A stretch of DNA of 64,000 nt from Holophagae bacterium (lineage in GTDB: Bacteria > Acidobacteriota > Holophagae > Acanthopleuribacterales > Acanthopleuribacteraceae), in contig JAJCXM010000017.1 in assembly GCA_029263455.1 (NCBI GenBank), positions 1-64,000 of the forward strand, in the 5' to 3' direction. Position 1 is the stretch's first letter. Each line of letters begins with the position of its first letter. Both the position numbers and the translations under genes were made by a program. The notes under the pieces were generated by a model. The model was not told the DNA's origin. It saw nothing but the letters and a program-made list of their open reading frames with translations, and made no database searches. Shown here one piece after another: positions 55,202 through 62,212 of the stretch.

Positions 55202-55264
55202 ATGAACAATAAACGTCACCATCATCATCTCGGACATCTAAAACTAGGTGGTGATACCCTGTAG
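55202..55264 (+). CDS. hisL: His operon leader peptide
   Basis: A 20-codon frame reading MNNKRHHHHLGHLKLGGDTL with five His, four consecutive. It sits between the his promoter and a strong terminator, as in classical transcription attenuation. When histidinyl-tRNA is scarce the ribosome stalls at the His codons and prevents terminator formation. The ATG is nearly at the predicted 5' end, so translation may start on an almost leaderless message. Confidence 0.93.
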   Translation: MNNKRHHHHLGHLKLGGDTL

Positions 55265-55290
55265 GTGACGAATCCCGTCAAAATTAACCA

Positions 55291-55328
55291 AAAGGCCCCG
55301 TTGGTATCACTTCCAACGGGGCCTTTTT
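55291..55328 (+). terminator. His attenuator terminator
   Basis: A 12-bp perfect stem (AGGCCCCGTTGG at 55293-55304 with CCAACGGGGCCT at 55313-55324; two further A-T pairs possible), an 8-base loop and a T5 run. It lies 17 bases before the hisG ATG and 26 after the leader-peptide stop. Antiterminator pairing with the leader region (GGTGATACC at 55250-55258 resembles the GGTATCAC in the loop) is a candidate alternative fold. Confidence 0.93.
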
Positions 55329-55344: not shown

Positions 55345-56196
55345 ATGACATTGAGAATGGTTATTCCTAAAGGTCGCATGATGGAAAATGTCGACCGATT
55401 ATTGGATGAAAGTGGCATTCAGGTTTCTGGAAGTGGTCGCAATTACCGACCGCGATGTAGTGACCCAAACCTAGAACTTAAGTTACTAAAGTCGCAAAAT
55501 ATCCCTCAACTGGTGGCTCTAGGTCAGCATGATTGTGGATTTGCTGGGTTGGATTGGATCAAAGAACAAGAAGCCGACGTAGAGATGATGCTGGATTTGG
55601 GCTTGGATCCAGTTCGCATCGTAGCCTGTATTCCCGAAGACTGGGACTGGAAGGCGCTTCACGAAAGGCCGGTTATTGCCGTCTCAGAATACCAAAACAT
55701 TTGTTGTCGTTTCTTAGATAGTGAAGGCTTAGATTACACCTTTGTGCGCTCATATGGCGCAACCGAAGTGTTTCCGCCAGAAGATGCCGATCTGATCGTT
55801 GACAACACGGCGACGGGTTCTACCTTACTCGCAAATCGTCTCAAAATTGTGGCCACAGTCCTTGAGAGTTCCACCTATTTTGTTGCCAATAAACGTGCCC
55901 TTGAAGATCCGGATCGGCGCGCCGAAATTGAGAATCTCACCCTTATCTTCCGTAGTGTCCTAGATGGGCGAGCGCGTGTGCTGCTCGAAATGAATTGTAG
56001 CGAAGATGATTTGCCTACTTTGGTATCTTTGTTACCCGCCATGAAAGCGCCCAGTGTTGCAAAGCTCTATGGCAACAGAGGTTTTGCCGTTAAAGCGGCT
56101 GTACTGCGTCAAGCTGTTAAGGATCTAGTACCCAAATTACGTCAAGCTGGCGCTACAGACATTCTTGAACTCGATATTCGCAAAGTCATTGCTTGA
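55345..56196 (+). CDS. hisG: ATP phosphoribosyltransferase
   Basis: First step of histidine synthesis: ATP plus PRPP to phosphoribosyl-ATP. 283 residues, the long form with a C-terminal feedback domain rather than the short HisZ-dependent form. LRMVIPKGRMMENVDRLL at the N-terminus, HDCGFAGLDWI, and the PRPP-binding DLIVDNTATGSTLLAN are visible. ATG 55345 has GGAG six bases upstream; an in-frame TTG 12 bases earlier is not needed. First structural gene of the operon. Confidence 0.96.
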   Translation: MTLRMVIPKGRMMENVDRLLDESGIQVSGSGRNYRPRCSDPNLELKLLKSQNIPQLVALGQHDCGFAGLDWIKEQEADVEMMLDLGLDPVRIVACIPEDWDWKALHERPVIAVSEYQNICCRFLDSEGLDYTFVRSYGATEVFPPEDADLIVDNTATGSTLLANRLKIVATVLESSTYFVANKRALEDPDRRAEIENLTLIFRSVLDGRARVLLEMNCSEDDLPTLVSLLPAMKAPSVAKLYGNRGFAVKAAVLRQAVKDLVPKLRQAGATDILELDIRKVIA

Positions 56197-56204
56197 GGTG
56201 ATTC

Positions 56205-57872
56205 ATGTTAGGTCAGTCTTGGATAGAGCAACCGGGCGTTTTGAAGTTAGATCAGAACGAACGAAGCGAAACACCTCCCGCCTGGGCCCAGAAAGCGCTG
56301 GCGGAAATGACGCCTTTTGTACTCAACCGTTATCCGCAGAGGGGACGTCTTGAGCGTAAACTAGCTGAATTTCACGGCGTCCTACCTCAACAGGTCCTGG
56401 TAACCAACGGTAGTGACGAATCGATTCAATACCTGTTTCAGTCGCTGCCCGCTGCGCATCCTGTCGTCTTGCCGTTACCTACTTTTGGTATTTATCAGGA
56501 TCAAATTCGCCGCTATCCGGTAAAAGCACATGTGATTCCTCCACTTGATGGATTGCGTCTGGACATGCAAGGCACTATCCAAGCCGTTACGGCCTTGAAA
56601 GGTGCCTTAGTCATTTTGGTCAGGCCCAACAATCCAACTGGTGAAATGGTGGCTGCACAGGAATTGTCACGATTGATGGATGCATGTGTGGCCACAGATT
56701 CTGTTTTGTTACTTGACGAAGCTTATGCTGACTTTTGCGAGGCGGATTTAGCGATCCAAATTGACGAGCAGCAAGCGAACAAAATCATCTTGCGCACCTT
56801 CTCTAAGGCATATGGTTTGGCTGGCTTAAGAGTGGGATATGCGGTGGGTGCAAGCCAACTCATTCAACCTATGCGTCAACGAGCGATGCCGTATAACGTA
56901 TCGACGCCGGCCTTGTTGATCGCCGAACAGGGATTGAGCAAAGAGGCACAACTGGATGTGGCAAGCTACTGTCGCCAAGTACGCCTCAACACGCAGCGCT
57001 TAATGGACTGGCTTAGCCTACACTCGCTTTGTTTTGTAACCAGCGCAGCCAACTTTGTGATGGTCAAGTTAAATCCTCTACGAGCCAAATTTGTGTCTCA
57101 AGCCATGGCGCATCAAGGCATTAAGGTCCGCATGTTCGATCGCCCGGAATTGATTGGCTGGGTCCGTATCTCTGTGCCGCTGGATGATCAGCGATTGTTT
57201 GCTTGTTTGGAGCAAGTGATTAGTCCCGATCTGATTTGTTTGGATGTGGATGGATGTTTAGTTGATGTGAAAGACAGCTTTGAAGCCACAGTGATCGAAG
57301 CTGTCCTTCGTGCCACGAAGCAAACGATCACTCGCCAAACAATCGTGCAAACTAGAGCTCGTGGCGGTTTCAACGACGATTGGGTTCTGACCCATGAATT
57401 GATCTCAAAATTGGGTGTCAGCATGACTCTAACCGATGTGCGAAGTCTCTGTGAAAGCATCTACTGGGGGACGACCGATGAGACGGGCCTGCATCAATTG
57501 GAGTTTGCTATCTTGTCGCCAGCCACTCGCGATCAATTGCAGAACAAGGCTCAACTGGCCATGGTTACGGGTCGTTCAACAACGGAACTCGAGCCGGTCT
57601 TCGATTTGCTTGGTCTGAAGAATGACATGCTCGCCAGTACGATTGACCAAGTAGAGAAGGGGAAGCCCGACCCAGAAGGGATATGGCGCGTAAAGAGCCT
57701 GTCTGGTGCGAGCCGTTTATGGATGGTCGGCGATAATGTGGATGATATACACGCCGCGCACGCTGCCGGTGCGGTCGCGATAGGAGTCGGTGAGGATCTA
57801 CGTCACGAATTAGAAGCTGCAGGTGCTGCCATTGTATTGAGCAGCATCAATGAGATAGGGAGCCTATTATGA
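56205..57872 (+). CDS. Bifunctional histidinol-phosphate aminotransferase / HAD phosphatase fusion
   Basis: 555 residues. Residues about 1-338 are HisC: FVLNRYPQRGRLERKLAEFH, LVTNGSDESIQYLF, the PLP-site RTFSKAYGLAGLRVGYAVG with its Lys, and LVRPNNPTGEM. From about 340 on is a HAD hydrolase: LICLDVDGCLVDVKDSF (motif I, DxDG), LAMVTGRSTTEL (motif II), EKGKPDPEG (motif III Lys) and MVGDNVDDIHAAH (motif IV). HisB in this operon lacks a phosphatase, so the HAD domain most likely removes phosphate from histidinol phosphate. The ATG has GAGGTG four bases upstream. Translationally coupled to hisB by a 4-base overlap. Confidence 0.93.
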   Translation: MLGQSWIEQPGVLKLDQNERSETPPAWAQKALAEMTPFVLNRYPQRGRLERKLAEFHGVLPQQVLVTNGSDESIQYLFQSLPAAHPVVLPLPTFGIYQDQIRRYPVKAHVIPPLDGLRLDMQGTIQAVTALKGALVILVRPNNPTGEMVAAQELSRLMDACVATDSVLLLDEAYADFCEADLAIQIDEQQANKIILRTFSKAYGLAGLRVGYAVGASQLIQPMRQRAMPYNVSTPALLIAEQGLSKEAQLDVASYCRQVRLNTQRLMDWLSLHSLCFVTSAANFVMVKLNPLRAKFVSQAMAHQGIKVRMFDRPELIGWVRISVPLDDQRLFACLEQVISPDLICLDVDGCLVDVKDSFEATVIEAVLRATKQTITRQTIVQTRARGGFNDDWVLTHELISKLGVSMTLTDVRSLCESIYWGTTDETGLHQLEFAILSPATRDQLQNKAQLAMVTGRSTTELEPVFDLLGLKNDMLASTIDQVEKGKPDPEGIWRVKSLSGASRLWMVGDNVDDIHAAHAAGAVAIGVGEDLRHELEAAGAAIVLSSINEIGSLL

Positions 57873-58435
57873 TCGAACACAAACGTTCTACACGCGAAAC
57901 ACAAATCGAGTTGACCTTAAATGTCAAGGGGACTGGACAGGTTCAGGTAGATACGGGCCATGGCTTTTTTGACCACATGCTGCATCAGCTTGCCTATCAC
58001 GGCGGTTTCGACCTTACACTCAAGGCACAAGGTGATCAAACGGGTGACCATCACCTTGTCGAAGACGTTGGCATTACATTGGGTGAAGCGCTTCAAACTG
58101 CGTGGCGGAAACAAGAGGGATTCAACCGCTTTGGACAATCGCTATTGCCCATGGATGACGTACTGGTGATTTGCGCGGTTGATTTGTGTGGCCGCGCTTT
58201 CTGCGACACGAAACTAAAGTTGACTCGCGAAAACGTTGGTGGAATGGACACCGAAATGGTGCCCCACTTTTTCCGATCTTTCGCCCACGCGGCACTCATC
58301 AATTTACATATTCGACGACTGGCTGGTTCAAATCATCACCATCTCATTGAGGCGGCCTTTAAGAGCACAGGTCGAGCCCTCCGCGATGCACTGTCAAACA
58401 ATATGACGACCTTTTCGACCAAAGGAAGCCTGTGA
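57869..58435 (+). CDS. hisB: Imidazoleglycerol-phosphate dehydratase, monofunctional
   Basis: 188 residues, the dehydratase alone without the N-terminal phosphatase of E. coli HisB. Metal-binding signatures GHGFFDHMLHQLAYHG, GDHHLVEDVGITLGEAL, GGMDTEMVPHFFRSFA and AGSNHHHLIEAAFKS are intact. It forms imidazole-acetol phosphate. It starts inside the hisC-HAD stop and its TGA overlaps the start of hisH. Confidence 0.97.
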   Translation: MIEHKRSTRETQIELTLNVKGTGQVQVDTGHGFFDHMLHQLAYHGGFDLTLKAQGDQTGDHHLVEDVGITLGEALQTAWRKQEGFNRFGQSLLPMDDVLVICAVDLCGRAFCDTKLKLTRENVGGMDTEMVPHFFRSFAHAALINLHIRRLAGSNHHHLIEAAFKSTGRALRDALSNNMTTFSTKGSL

Positions 58436-59004
58436 TGATCGGTATTGTGGATTCCGGTTCCGGCAATTTGACCTCCGTGTCACATGCGCTAAGCCGCTTA
58501 AATGCCGAACACAAAATATTGACGGAACCTAAGATGGATGAAGTCAAAGCTCTGATTGTGCCTGGACAGGGTCGCTTCGGACCCGTGATGGCCCACCTAA
58601 ATCGAAGTGGCTGGTCAGGAATCATTAGAGACTGGGTGGCTTCAGGCCAAAAACTACTTGGCATCTGCGTCGGCATGCAGATTCTTTTTGAAGGATCGGA
58701 GGAAGATCCCAACAGTCCAGGGCTAGGCATAATGGAAGGGCAGGTGAAGCGGCTGCAAGCGCCCAAAATTCCTATGATGGGATGGTCGCAAGTGAGCTGG
58801 ACCGAGCCGTCATTCCATCAAGGCGCGGCCTATTTTGTGAATGGTTACGTGGTCAGCAAGTCGAATTACGCCATCGCGACATCCAACTATGGCCAGGCAT
58901 TTTGTTCGGCCGTGCGGGTTAAGGAAACGACCGCCATGCAGTTTCATCCTGAAAAATCGGGACGTTGGGGACAGGAGGTACTTCGCACATGGCTGGCCTC
59001 TTAA
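58435..59004 (+). CDS. hisH: Imidazole glycerol phosphate synthase, glutamine amidotransferase subunit
   Basis: 189 residues. Class I glutaminase with the catalytic Cys in LLGICVGMQILFEGSEE, and His and Glu in AMQFHPEKSGRWG. It supplies ammonia to HisF. Start ATG 58435 (TGATG overlap with hisB, AGGAAG six bases upstream) is preferred over GTG 58432. The end overlaps the hisF start by 16 bases. Confidence 0.96.
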   Translation: MIGIVDSGSGNLTSVSHALSRLNAEHKILTEPKMDEVKALIVPGQGRFGPVMAHLNRSGWSGIIRDWVASGQKLLGICVGMQILFEGSEEDPNSPGLGIMEGQVKRLQAPKIPMMGWSQVSWTEPSFHQGAAYFVNGYVVSKSNYAIATSNYGQAFCSAVRVKETTAMQFHPEKSGRWGQEVLRTWLAS

Positions 59005-59756
59005 GAAGAATCATCCCCTGTTTGGACGTTGACCGTGGTCGGGTGGTCAAGGGCACGCATTTTGTTGAATTACGCGATATGGGTGACCCAGTTGAACTAG
59101 CCGTTCGCTATCAATCTGAAGGTGCGGATGAGATTGTGTTTCTCGATATCAACGCCTCAGCCGACAATCGACCGACGGCGTTAGATATGGTGCGGCAAGT
59201 GGCTCGTTCGTTAACGATCCCTTTTACGCTGGGAGGAGGGCTGCGAACATTGGACGATATGTATGCCTTTCTGGACGCGGGCGCCGACAAAGTGGCACTC
59301 AATTCATCGGCCTTAGCTCAACCGCAGTTGATCGAACAGGGCGCACGTCAATTTGGATCGCAATGCATCGTCGTTTCCATTGACGTTAAACGTCAAGCGG
59401 CTGGCTATTATCGGGTTTACTCCCATGGCGGTCGCAAGGGGACCGGTCATACAGCGAAGTCATGGGTTCGCGAAGTCGTAGAACGCGGTGCCGGCGAATT
59501 GTTGTTAACCAGCATCGATCGTGATGGTACAGGTGATGGCTACGATATGGCGATCACCGAACCGATTGCGAGAGCGACACCCATTCCCGTGATCGCGTCT
59601 GGAGGAGCAAAAAATACAGCACACTTGCTTGAGGCTTTCAAGAGAGGCGCGGACGCCGTGTTGGCTGCGACGATGTTCCACTCAGGCGAATTCCAGGTTG
59701 GTCAAGTGAAGCGCGACCTCAAGCGGGCTGGTATCCCAGTTCGCTTGGATTATTAA
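58989..59756 (+). CDS. hisF: Imidazole glycerol phosphate synthase, cyclase subunit
   Basis: 255 residues. TIM barrel with RRIIPCLDVDRGRVVKGTHF, the catalytic Asp in VVSIDVKRQ, and TSIDRDGTGDGYD. Cyclises PRFAR to imidazole glycerol phosphate and AICAR, which returns to purine synthesis. ATG 58989 with AGGAGGT nine bases upstream, inside hisH. The frame also opens further upstream without family similarity. Confidence 0.97.
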   Translation: MAGLLRRIIPCLDVDRGRVVKGTHFVELRDMGDPVELAVRYQSEGADEIVFLDINASADNRPTALDMVRQVARSLTIPFTLGGGLRTLDDMYAFLDAGADKVALNSSALAQPQLIEQGARQFGSQCIVVSIDVKRQAAGYYRVYSHGGRKGTGHTAKSWVREVVERGAGELLLTSIDRDGTGDGYDMAITEPIARATPIPVIASGGAKNTAHLLEAFKRGADAVLAATMFHSGEFQVGQVKRDLKRAGIPVRLDY

Positions 59757-59766
59757 AGGAGCGAAC

Positions 59767-61002
59767 ATGTTTATTCCTAGTATTGATCTCTATGATGGGC
59801 GCGCGGTTCAATGGCGGCAGGGCAAGGAGAAAGTGCTCGAACGTGACGATGTAGAAGGCTTACTCGACCAATTCTCTCTGTACGGCGACGTCGCGATAGT
59901 GGATTTAAACGCCGCACTAGGTGAGGGTGACAATAAAGAACTTATCAAACGCCTGTTACGCAAGCATCCGTGTCGTGTGGGCGGTGGTATTCGCGATAAG
60001 GAGACGGCGCTGGCTTACCTGAAAGCCGGCGCCTCGAAAATAGTCATTGGAACGGCCGCGCAGGAACCCTTTGTGCTGGAACTACCCAAGCAATCCGTAG
60101 TGGTGGCATTGGATTCGCGTGCCGATCAGTGGCTGACTCATGGCTGGACTCAGGCAAGTGAGTTAACGACTTCGCAAGCGCTTGAACTGATGAGCCAAAG
60201 AGCAAGTGAATTCTTGTATACCCAAGTGGAGAAGGAAGGTATGTTGCAAGGCCTTGATCGCGATCGTGCAAGGTCAGTCATCGCACAATCACCTATCCCA
60301 GTAACGGTTGCGGGTGGTGTTACCAGTAGCGACGATATTGCCTTTCTACATGGGCTCGGCGCAAAAGCGCAAATCGGCATGGCAATCTACACAGGTAAAT
60401 TGAGCCTGGTGGACTGCTTTATGGCGTGCCTTGACTTCGAGAAATGTGAACGAATCCCAACCATTGTTCAGGATTCAGGTTCGAAACAAGTGCTCATGAT
60501 GGCCTATTCCACGCGCGATTCTATTCAACTTGCGCTCCAGCAACGAAAAGGAATCTATTTTTCGCGTAGCCGTAATCAATTATGGGAGAAGGGCGAAAGC
60601 TCAGGGCATAAACAACACCTTGTTGGAGCCAGTATTGACTGTGATGGCGATACAATTCTCTTCCAAGTGCAGCAAGAGGGCCGTGCCTGTCATTTCAAGA
60701 CATGGAGCTGTTTCTCCAGTGTTGAAGACACATTCGACCTCAGTACCTTGAATGATACTTTGCAGAGTCGACGCCAAAACCCCACCAAGGGCTCCTACAC
60801 CTCATCCCTTTTTGCCGATTCCACCTTGCGTGCCGCTAAATTACGCGAAGAAACAGATGAACTTATCGAGGCTGATTCATTTGATGAAGTCAGATGGGAA
60901 GCTGCAGACCTGCTATATTTCACCTTGGTCGAAGCAGCCGCTCATGGCGTTCAACTTCAGGATATTGTCCAAGAATTGAGGAGTCGGCATGGAAATCGTT
61001 GA
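59767..61002 (+). CDS. HisA-HisI-HisE trifunctional fusion
   Basis: 411 residues. About 1-225 are HisA (FIPSIDLYDGRAVQWRQG with Asp, VVALDSRADQW with the second Asp, YTQVEKEGMLQGLDRDRA). About 229-325 are HisI, phosphoribosyl-AMP cyclohydrolase (IVQDSGSKQVLMMAYSTRDS, GIYFSRSRNQLWEKGESSGH, DCDGDTILFQVQQEGRACH, SCF with its Cys and His metal ligands). The last 85 residues are HisE, phosphoribosyl-ATP pyrophosphatase (LRAAKLREETDELIEA, EAADLLYFTLVEA). It therefore covers steps two, three and four. HisIE fusions are common; joining HisA in front is unusual to my knowledge. The hisD start lies 14 bases inside its end. Confidence 0.95.
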   Translation: MFIPSIDLYDGRAVQWRQGKEKVLERDDVEGLLDQFSLYGDVAIVDLNAALGEGDNKELIKRLLRKHPCRVGGGIRDKETALAYLKAGASKIVIGTAAQEPFVLELPKQSVVVALDSRADQWLTHGWTQASELTTSQALELMSQRASEFLYTQVEKEGMLQGLDRDRARSVIAQSPIPVTVAGGVTSSDDIAFLHGLGAKAQIGMAIYTGKLSLVDCFMACLDFEKCERIPTIVQDSGSKQVLMMAYSTRDSIQLALQQRKGIYFSRSRNQLWEKGESSGHKQHLVGASIDCDGDTILFQVQQEGRACHFKTWSCFSSVEDTFDLSTLNDTLQSRRQNPTKGSYTSSLFADSTLRAAKLREETDELIEADSFDEVRWEAADLLYFTLVEAAAHGVQLQDIVQELRSRHGNR

Positions 61003-62212
61003 GCATCCAGACGCCTGGCGTCGGCCCAAACACGAGCATTCAGCCAACCTGGAGCAGCGCGTCCAAAATATCGTGGCCCGTATCCGTGATCATGGAGAAG
61101 AGGCCTTACGCATTATCAGCCATGAAATCGATGGCTTCTTACCGGAGGTTGTCGAATTGCGACCTTGGACATCTTATGGACTCGACGCGGCATTTAGCCG
61201 TCATTTGAAGAAGGCTGCTCGCCGCATTGAAGCTTTTGCCAAAAGGCAAAGATCCTCGATGAAAGATATTAATTTCAAAGACAAACAGGGTCGCTATGGG
61301 CACAAGTGGGTTCCGCTTGACCGCATGGGCGCCTATATTCCGGCTGGCCGCTATCCGCTGATTTCCACCGCCTTGATGACACTTATTCCTGCGCGCATTG
61401 CCGGCGTGCAAACACGTGTCGCGGTGTCGCCTAGCGCTCATCCCGCATTGCTGGCAGCGGCTAGTTTGGCTGGCGCGACTCGTATGGTTAGGGTTGGTGG
61501 TGCCCAGGCGGTTGCCGCGCTTGCCTTCGGGACAGAAAGTGTGCCGCGCGTGGATATGATAGCGGGACCGGGAAACGCCTACGTGAACGAAGCTAAGCGG
61601 CTCGTGCAAGCCAATGTGAAGATAGATACATTAGCCGGACCAAGCGAATTACTCGTCTTGAGTGATGGCTCGATTGAGCCAAATTGGATTGCCATGGATC
61701 TTTTGGCTCAAGGTGAACATGACCCCATGGCCTTGGCCATTTGTGCGAGCACCGATCGCCAGCATCTCGAAAAGATAGCTTCGATTATTCGCGCTGAATT
61801 AGGGCAGGAGCCTGAAGGAAAAGGCGATTTTCAATTCGTCCATTGTGAGGACCGTGAGCAATGCATTGATTTTGCCAATGATGTGGCCGCCGAACATTTG
61901 GCGTTGACATGGCAGGACCCAGAATCAGATCAGCATCAGCTAAGGCACTACGGATCCCTCTTTATGGGACCTTATAGTGCAGTGGCTTTAGGTGACTATT
62001 GCTCTGGTCCCAATCACACCCTGCCTACGCTTGGCGTCGTGCGCATGAAAGGTGGCCTATTTGTCGGTGACTTCTTGCGTGCTTTGACATGGCAGAAAAT
62101 AGAAGCGAGCGGCTTTGAGGATCTGTCAAAAACGGCTAAAGCGCTCGCGCAAGCTGAAGGCTTGGACTACCATTACCGGAGTTTAGCCGTCAGAGACAAA
62201 ACGGAGGATTGA
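60989..62212 (+). CDS. hisD: Histidinol dehydrogenase
   Basis: 407 residues, slightly short for the family (about 430) but complete. Motifs are GPGNAYVNEAKRLVQ, VGGAQAVAALAFGTES, AGPSELLVLSD, LLAQGEHDPMAL (Zn-ligand His; AQAEHD is more usual), NDVAAEHLALTW (catalytic Glu-His), LGDYCSGPNHTLPT (Zn-ligand Asp) and a C-terminal His in DYHYRSLAV. Makes histidine from histidinol in two NAD-dependent steps. AGGAG lies five bases before the ATG. In most operons hisD follows hisG; here it is last of the his genes. Confidence 0.96.
   Translation: MEIVEHPDAWRRPKHEHSANLEQRVQNIVARIRDHGEEALRIISHEIDGFLPEVVELRPWTSYGLDAAFSRHLKKAARRIEAFAKRQRSSMKDINFKDKQGRYGHKWVPLDRMGAYIPAGRYPLISTALMTLIPARIAGVQTRVAVSPSAHPALLAAASLAGATRMVRVGGAQAVAALAFGTESVPRVDMIAGPGNAYVNEAKRLVQANVKIDTLAGPSELLVLSDGSIEPNWIAMDLLAQGEHDPMALAICASTDRQHLEKIASIIRAELGQEPEGKGDFQFVHCEDREQCIDFANDVAAEHLALTWQDPESDQHQLRHYGSLFMGPYSAVALGDYCSGPNHTLPTLGVVRMKGGLFVGDFLRALTWQKIEASGFEDLSKTAKALAQAEGLDYHYRSLAVRDKTED

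Follow-up and report, generated by a model that had tools for sequence, protein, structure and literature searches.

A HisA-HisI-HisE fusion gene in the histidine operon of Acanthopleuribacteraceae and a group of marine Gammaproteobacteria

RESULTS

The histidine operon and its leader region

The window analyzed here, a 64,000-nucleotide stretch of an Acanthopleuribacteraceae genome (contig JAJCXM010000017.1), harbors seven consecutive histidine biosynthesis genes on the forward strand (Table 1). Their order, hisG-hisC.HAD-hisB-hisH-hisF-hisA.IE-hisD, is common to the Acanthopleuribacteraceae and the Kangiella/Pleionea group. In both phyla, most relatives have a His-run leader peptide 5' of hisG; a terminator in the same location was found in the window, where it is strong (fold z-score, -6.3), and in several relatives. 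The Rfam His_leader model scored 31.9 against the window, below its gathering score of 49, and reached that score in none of the nine relatives' loci searched. From its leader peptide and hairpin, the region at 55202-55327 is a candidate histidine attenuator. Kangiella loci exhibit two consecutive His-run leader peptides (IHHHHHH and LHHHHHH) 5' of hisG with a terminator between them, at about positions 1051-1320 of locus L041, 987-1260 of L043 and 992-1280 of L048, which are possibly tandem attenuators.

Table 1. Features of the his operon in the window
Feature	Position	Strand	Remarks
His-run leader peptide MNNKRHHHHLGHLKLGGDTL	55202..55264	+	candidate attenuator leader of the operon
Terminator hairpin	55290..55327	+	15 pairs and a T run; lies 5' of hisG, after the leader peptide
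hisG	55345..56196	+	long form with HisG_C domain
hisC fused to HAD-type phosphatase domain	56205..57872	+	candidate histidinol-phosphatase
hisB	57869..58435	+	IGP dehydratase only
hisH	58432..59004	+	
hisF	58965..59756	+	
hisA-hisI-hisE fusion gene	59767..61002	+	411 aa, then TGA; from frame and Pfam
HisA (ProFAR isomerase) domain	59767..60417	+	about residues 1-217
HisI (PRA-CH) domain	60418..60732	+	about residues 218-322
HisE (PRA-PH) domain	60733..60999	+	about residues 323-411
hisD	60989..62212	+	14-nt overlap with the fusion gene

The hisC gene is itself fused to a HAD-type domain, as it is in Kangiella and Pleionea; its nearest family model is TIGR01548, whose cut-off it does not reach. 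Since profile searches of the genome found no HisJ-type histidinol-phosphatase, and HisN-type matches were all below the cut-off, the HisC-HAD protein is a candidate for this enzyme.

A single gene encodes HisA, HisI and HisE domains

The fusion gene has an AGGAG Shine-Dalgarno sequence immediately 5' of its ATG, and its last 14 nt, stop codon included, overlap the start of hisD. Pfam analysis of the 411-residue protein resulted in three nonoverlapping domains, all above their gathering scores, namely, His_biosynth (PF00977) at residues 3 to 212 with 142 bits, PRA-CH (PF01502) at residues 244 to 316 with 99 bits (cut-off, 27) and PRA-PH (PF01503) at residues 326 to 408 with 71.3 bits (cut-off, 21.3). 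The NCBIfam HisIE equivalog NF002747 scored 183.3 bits against a cut-off of 187. An AlphaFold model of the protein comprises HisA-like and HisIE-like halves (pLDDT 88 and pTM 0.77 for the whole chain), and its PDB matches by Foldseek have the HisA fold (HisA and PriA structures) and the HisIE fold. The three-domain HisA-HisI-HisE fusion in one gene is real. A previous sequence-only reading had placed HisA ahead of HisIE in a single 411-residue frame, with steps two, three and four on one chain, and both the coordinates and the three full Pfam domains, in the chain order A-I-E, agree with it. That reading, correct about the triple fusion, made no mention of its wide spread, of the probable horizontal transfer described below or of the second fusion, HisC-HAD.

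Distribution of the fusion

All Acanthopleuribacteraceae relatives whose locus is intact have the fusion. The join was unbroken in genomes G001, G003, G005 and G006; the G004 copy is divided over two contigs, and the search of the relatives' genomes gave no fusion match in G002. Another family of the class also carries it, with three genomes from one genus and a fourth from a second genus, and it was found in 20 of 396 sampled Acidobacteriota genomes. Among the Gammaproteobacteria, it was observed in Kangiella, Pleionea, Aliikangiella and related MAGs. Isolates with the unbroken join are Acanthopleuribacter pedis, Pleionea mediterranea, Kangiella aquimarina and Aliikangiella coralliicola. One MAG labeled Phycisphaerales carries the fusion beside HisF, its HisA domain being the only strong HisA match of that bin; a further copy is in a MAG labeled Bacteroidetes, which holds a second HisA-type gene and therefore may be mixed in its contents. 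A broad gammaproteobacterial spread was ruled out, as the sole match in a sample of 369 genomes was Kangiella. No viral relatives of the fusion were found in IMG/VR.

Conserved active-site residues and a Glu-type HisA

Residue conservation was counted over an alignment of 39 fusions, in which HisI and HisE residues were assigned by motif to those of plant HISN2. In MtHISN2, the metal and catalytic residues are Asp125/127/129, Cys126/142/149 and His143, together with a Glu/Asp site in PRA-PH (PMC8102479). The corresponding HisI motifs of the window protein are DCDGD at 291 to 295, Cys308-His309 and Cys315, and D291, C292, D293, D295, C308, H309 and C315 were invariant in all 39 sequences. These include the Cys/His ligands (C292, C308, H309 and C315) that the first inspection had described as kept. 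In the HisE domain, E361, E362, E365, E378 and D381 were likewise invariant.

In the HisA domain, Asp7, Arg76, Asp116 and Trp127 were invariant across the 39 fusions, Asp7 and Asp116 being equivalent to Salmonella D7 and D129. The loop-6 catalytic Asp corresponds to D176 in Salmonella HisA (SeHisA) and D175 in MtPriA (PMC9088769). This position is Glu157 in 39/39 fusions, within the motif T-x-x-x-x-E-G; all canonical HisA and HisF sequences in the comparison have Asp there. The earlier statement that both catalytic Asp regions of HisA are kept thus holds for Asp7 and Asp116, but not for the loop-6 Asp. An equivalent Glu was found in 14 stand-alone HisA proteins from other acidobacterial families. 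In a tree containing 52 fused and stand-alone Glu-type HisA sequences, these formed one clade (support, 98) separate from canonical HisA (support, 97). Judged by alignment and phylogeny, the fused HisA is a distinct Glu-type HisA subfamily joined to HisIE. Because the loop-6 catalytic Asp is replaced by Glu, the sequence does not by itself establish that the domain is an active ProFAR isomerase; Glu157 would presumably be the catalytic acid. HisA is one of the model enzymes of barrel evolution, and the replacement of Asp by Glu at this catalytic position is conserved throughout the subfamily.

The subfamily also escapes the curated HisA model. Against NCBIfam TIGR00007, the HisA domain of the window scored 151.1 bits (153.1 in the genome search), missing the cut-off of 228.95 (about 229); of the 81 acidobacterial genomes that matched this model, 55 were likewise below it. 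Since the Glu-type family scores below this cut-off, automatic annotation may wrongly report hisA as missing. The stand-alone Glu-type HisA genes (L103-L116), from several acidobacterial families, all score far below it as well.

Evolutionary history of the fusion

Fused HisI domains formed one clade with an SH-aLRT support of 99, which left out separate HisIE, separate HisI and an independent HisF-HisIE fusion. In the free HisA tree, stand-alone Glu-type HisA fell within the fused group at a weakly supported node (88), a placement expected if the fusion had arisen several times independently; acidobacteria do have other independent his fusions. Nevertheless, we consider repeated origins distinctly unlikely, as constraining the fused HisA to one clade gave a likelihood 7.4 units better (p-AU 0.74, not rejected), the fused HisI domains group together as described above, and the HisA-HisI junction is nearly constant in length everywhere, with 28 to 31 residues and no added linker in 39/39 fusions. 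The stand-alone Glu-type group has its own separate HisI, usually encoded a few kilobases away. Most simply, these trees would mean that hisIE was joined, a single time, to a HisA that was already of the Glu type.

Overall, the trees support a single origin of the fusion together with horizontal transfer. The HisA sequences of the Gammaproteobacteria lie next to the Acanthopleuribacter relatives, nested within the Acanthopleuribacteraceae group (branch supports, 86-93). Because of this nesting, and because the 368 other sampled gammaproteobacterial genomes are without the fusion, transfer of the operon from Acidobacteriota to Gammaproteobacteria appears to be the favored direction. Most likely, a neighboring Glu-type hisA and hisIE would have been joined once in a hisF-hisA-hisIE-hisD operon, in or near the Acidobacteriota, and the operon would later have been handed to the Kangiellaceae/Pleioneaceae. 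Acidobacteriota and marine Gammaproteobacteria clearly have an entire amino-acid operon in common, apparently together with its attenuator.

Proposed function of the fusion protein

The gene very probably encodes a trifunctional enzyme for steps 2 to 4 of histidine synthesis that arose once and was passed on with the operon. From their domain families and conserved residues, we infer that the C-terminal HisE would strip pyrophosphate from PR-ATP (step 2), the middle HisI, with Zn/Mg, would open the adenine ring of PR-AMP to give ProFAR (step 3), and the N-terminal HisA barrel would isomerize ProFAR to PRFAR for HisHF (step 4). The reaction order, E-I-A, is the reverse of the chain order. As HisI is dimeric in known HisIE structures, the protein is most likely a homodimer held together by HisI/HisE, with one outward HisA barrel per chain. 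The covalent linkage would fix the stoichiometry and hold PR-AMP and ProFAR near the next site. We know of no case of HisA-HisI channeling. Proximity channeling of PR-AMP has been measured in A. baumannii HisIE (PMC10242683), and by analogy we hypothesize that in the fusion it may extend to ProFAR. A natural three-step enzyme of a textbook pathway in culturable bacteria would make PR-AMP/ProFAR channeling on one chain measurable.

The genome has hisG, hisB, hisH, hisF and hisD, though no stand-alone HisA or HisI was found elsewhere in it. Profile searches of its 6.2 Mb gave no second PF01502 match, and the sole other PF00977 match was HisF, encoded by the gene adjoining the fusion; one further PF01503 match was weak (22.2 bits, barely above the cut-off). 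These observations bear on the possibility that the activity of the HisA domain is lost or altered (to a TrpF-like or structural role, for example) and that another protein isomerizes ProFAR. Such a change could explain why Glu157 replaces the catalytic Asp across the whole subfamily and why the domain scores below the curated cut-off. It is nonetheless very improbable, given that the genome is without another HisA, that the four other HisA residues listed above are invariant, and that elsewhere in the acidobacteria this type is the single HisA found and adjoins hisF. In addition, TrpF-family genes (PF00697 matches above the cut-off at C7:141318 and C7:97012) exist elsewhere in the genome, so a PriA-type HisA/TrpF double duty would be unneeded and was rejected.

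Integrity of the HisA-HisI junction

An in-frame ATG at the junction (Met219, 60421), eight bases 3' of a weak, ribosome-binding-like GGTGG, might allow a separate HisIE to be made in addition to the full-length trifunctional protein. However, Met occupies this column in just 6 of 39 fusions, and we give an internal start hardly any credence; it was rejected as unconserved. A stop codon at the junction, named earlier as evidence that would refute the fusion, was sought in relatives and was absent, every full-length relative reading through. Between the window and its nearest relative, codons 200 to 240 differ at 12, 8 and 29 sites in codon positions 1, 2 and 3, respectively, a coding pattern. 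Although the source genome is a 40-contig assembly, the chance that a lost stop or frameshift in sequencing or assembly created the join from separate hisA and hisIE is negligible and was ruled out by this read-through, with the identical unbroken join in independently sequenced genomes, isolates included, and a conserved junction length.

Relation to known his fusions

A survey from 2007 described five his fusions, none with HisA preceding HisIE (PMC1963479). The bifunctional HisIE proteins (E. coli/Shigella HisIE and plant HISN2) share with the present protein the HisI-HisE order, metal ligands, phosphate-binding motifs and fold, whereas here a complete HisA lies ahead of HisI, with no linker and no separate hisA. 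Yeast HIS4 (HisI-HisE-HisD) is likewise a HisIE extended by another his gene, but with HisD behind HisIE instead of HisA in front (PMC1963479). In archaea, cluster 787.1 comprises HisA/F-HisIE fusions in which a HisA/HisF-family barrel is joined to HisIE; these come from four DPANN or unclassified metagenome assemblies with the barrel type unspecified and were compared by description only (PMC11237513).

The heptafunctional his protein of Acanthamoeba also has ProFAR isomerase, PRA-CH and PRA-PH, listed in that order, and its A-I-E domains follow HisHF and precede HisD, as in the operon order H-F-A-IE-D observed here (PMC6029752). This protein is eukaryotic, with 1,682 residues and seven activities, and is likened to the window fusion by its listed domain order. 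We put forward, as a rather unlikely reading, that the fused-HisA subfamily uses Glu as the catalytic acid and that the Acanthamoeba multienzyme gene derives from the bacterial H-F-A.IE-D operon or one closely related to it; if true, it predicts a Glu-type HisA within the Acanthamoeba protein. The literature searched for hisA-IE genes, for trifunctional enzymes of the pathway and for his fusions in Kangiella (with few subscription papers) did not describe the bacterial family, its transfer or the Glu substitution. Within that literature, these three appear to be new, while A-I-E in Acanthamoeba and HisA/F-HisIE in archaea were already known.

Other acidobacterial proteins also have neighboring his genes in one frame, namely, HisF-HisIE (L117/L118), HisA-HisF (L101) and HisH-HisA-HisF (L100). 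They differ from the present fusion in their partners, HisA, where present, is of the Asp type, and the HisF-HisIE pair forms a separate clade in the HisI tree. The HisF-HisIE frames, which start at 2439 in L117 and at 1994 in L118, come from two genomes in the same acidobacterial family and have a canonical HisA upstream. HisA-HisF open-frame fusions were seen in L101 and L099, in frames starting at 1147 and 1321, respectively, the HisF half of the latter looking degenerate. In another acidobacterial family, the frame from 370 (+) of L100 holds HisH, HisA and HisF in a row, a possible triple fusion. Finally, in a gammaproteobacterial MAG (L037), HisH and HisF share one 493-residue frame from 124 (+), a possible HisHF fusion, and the order hisF-hisA.IE-hisD is as in the window.
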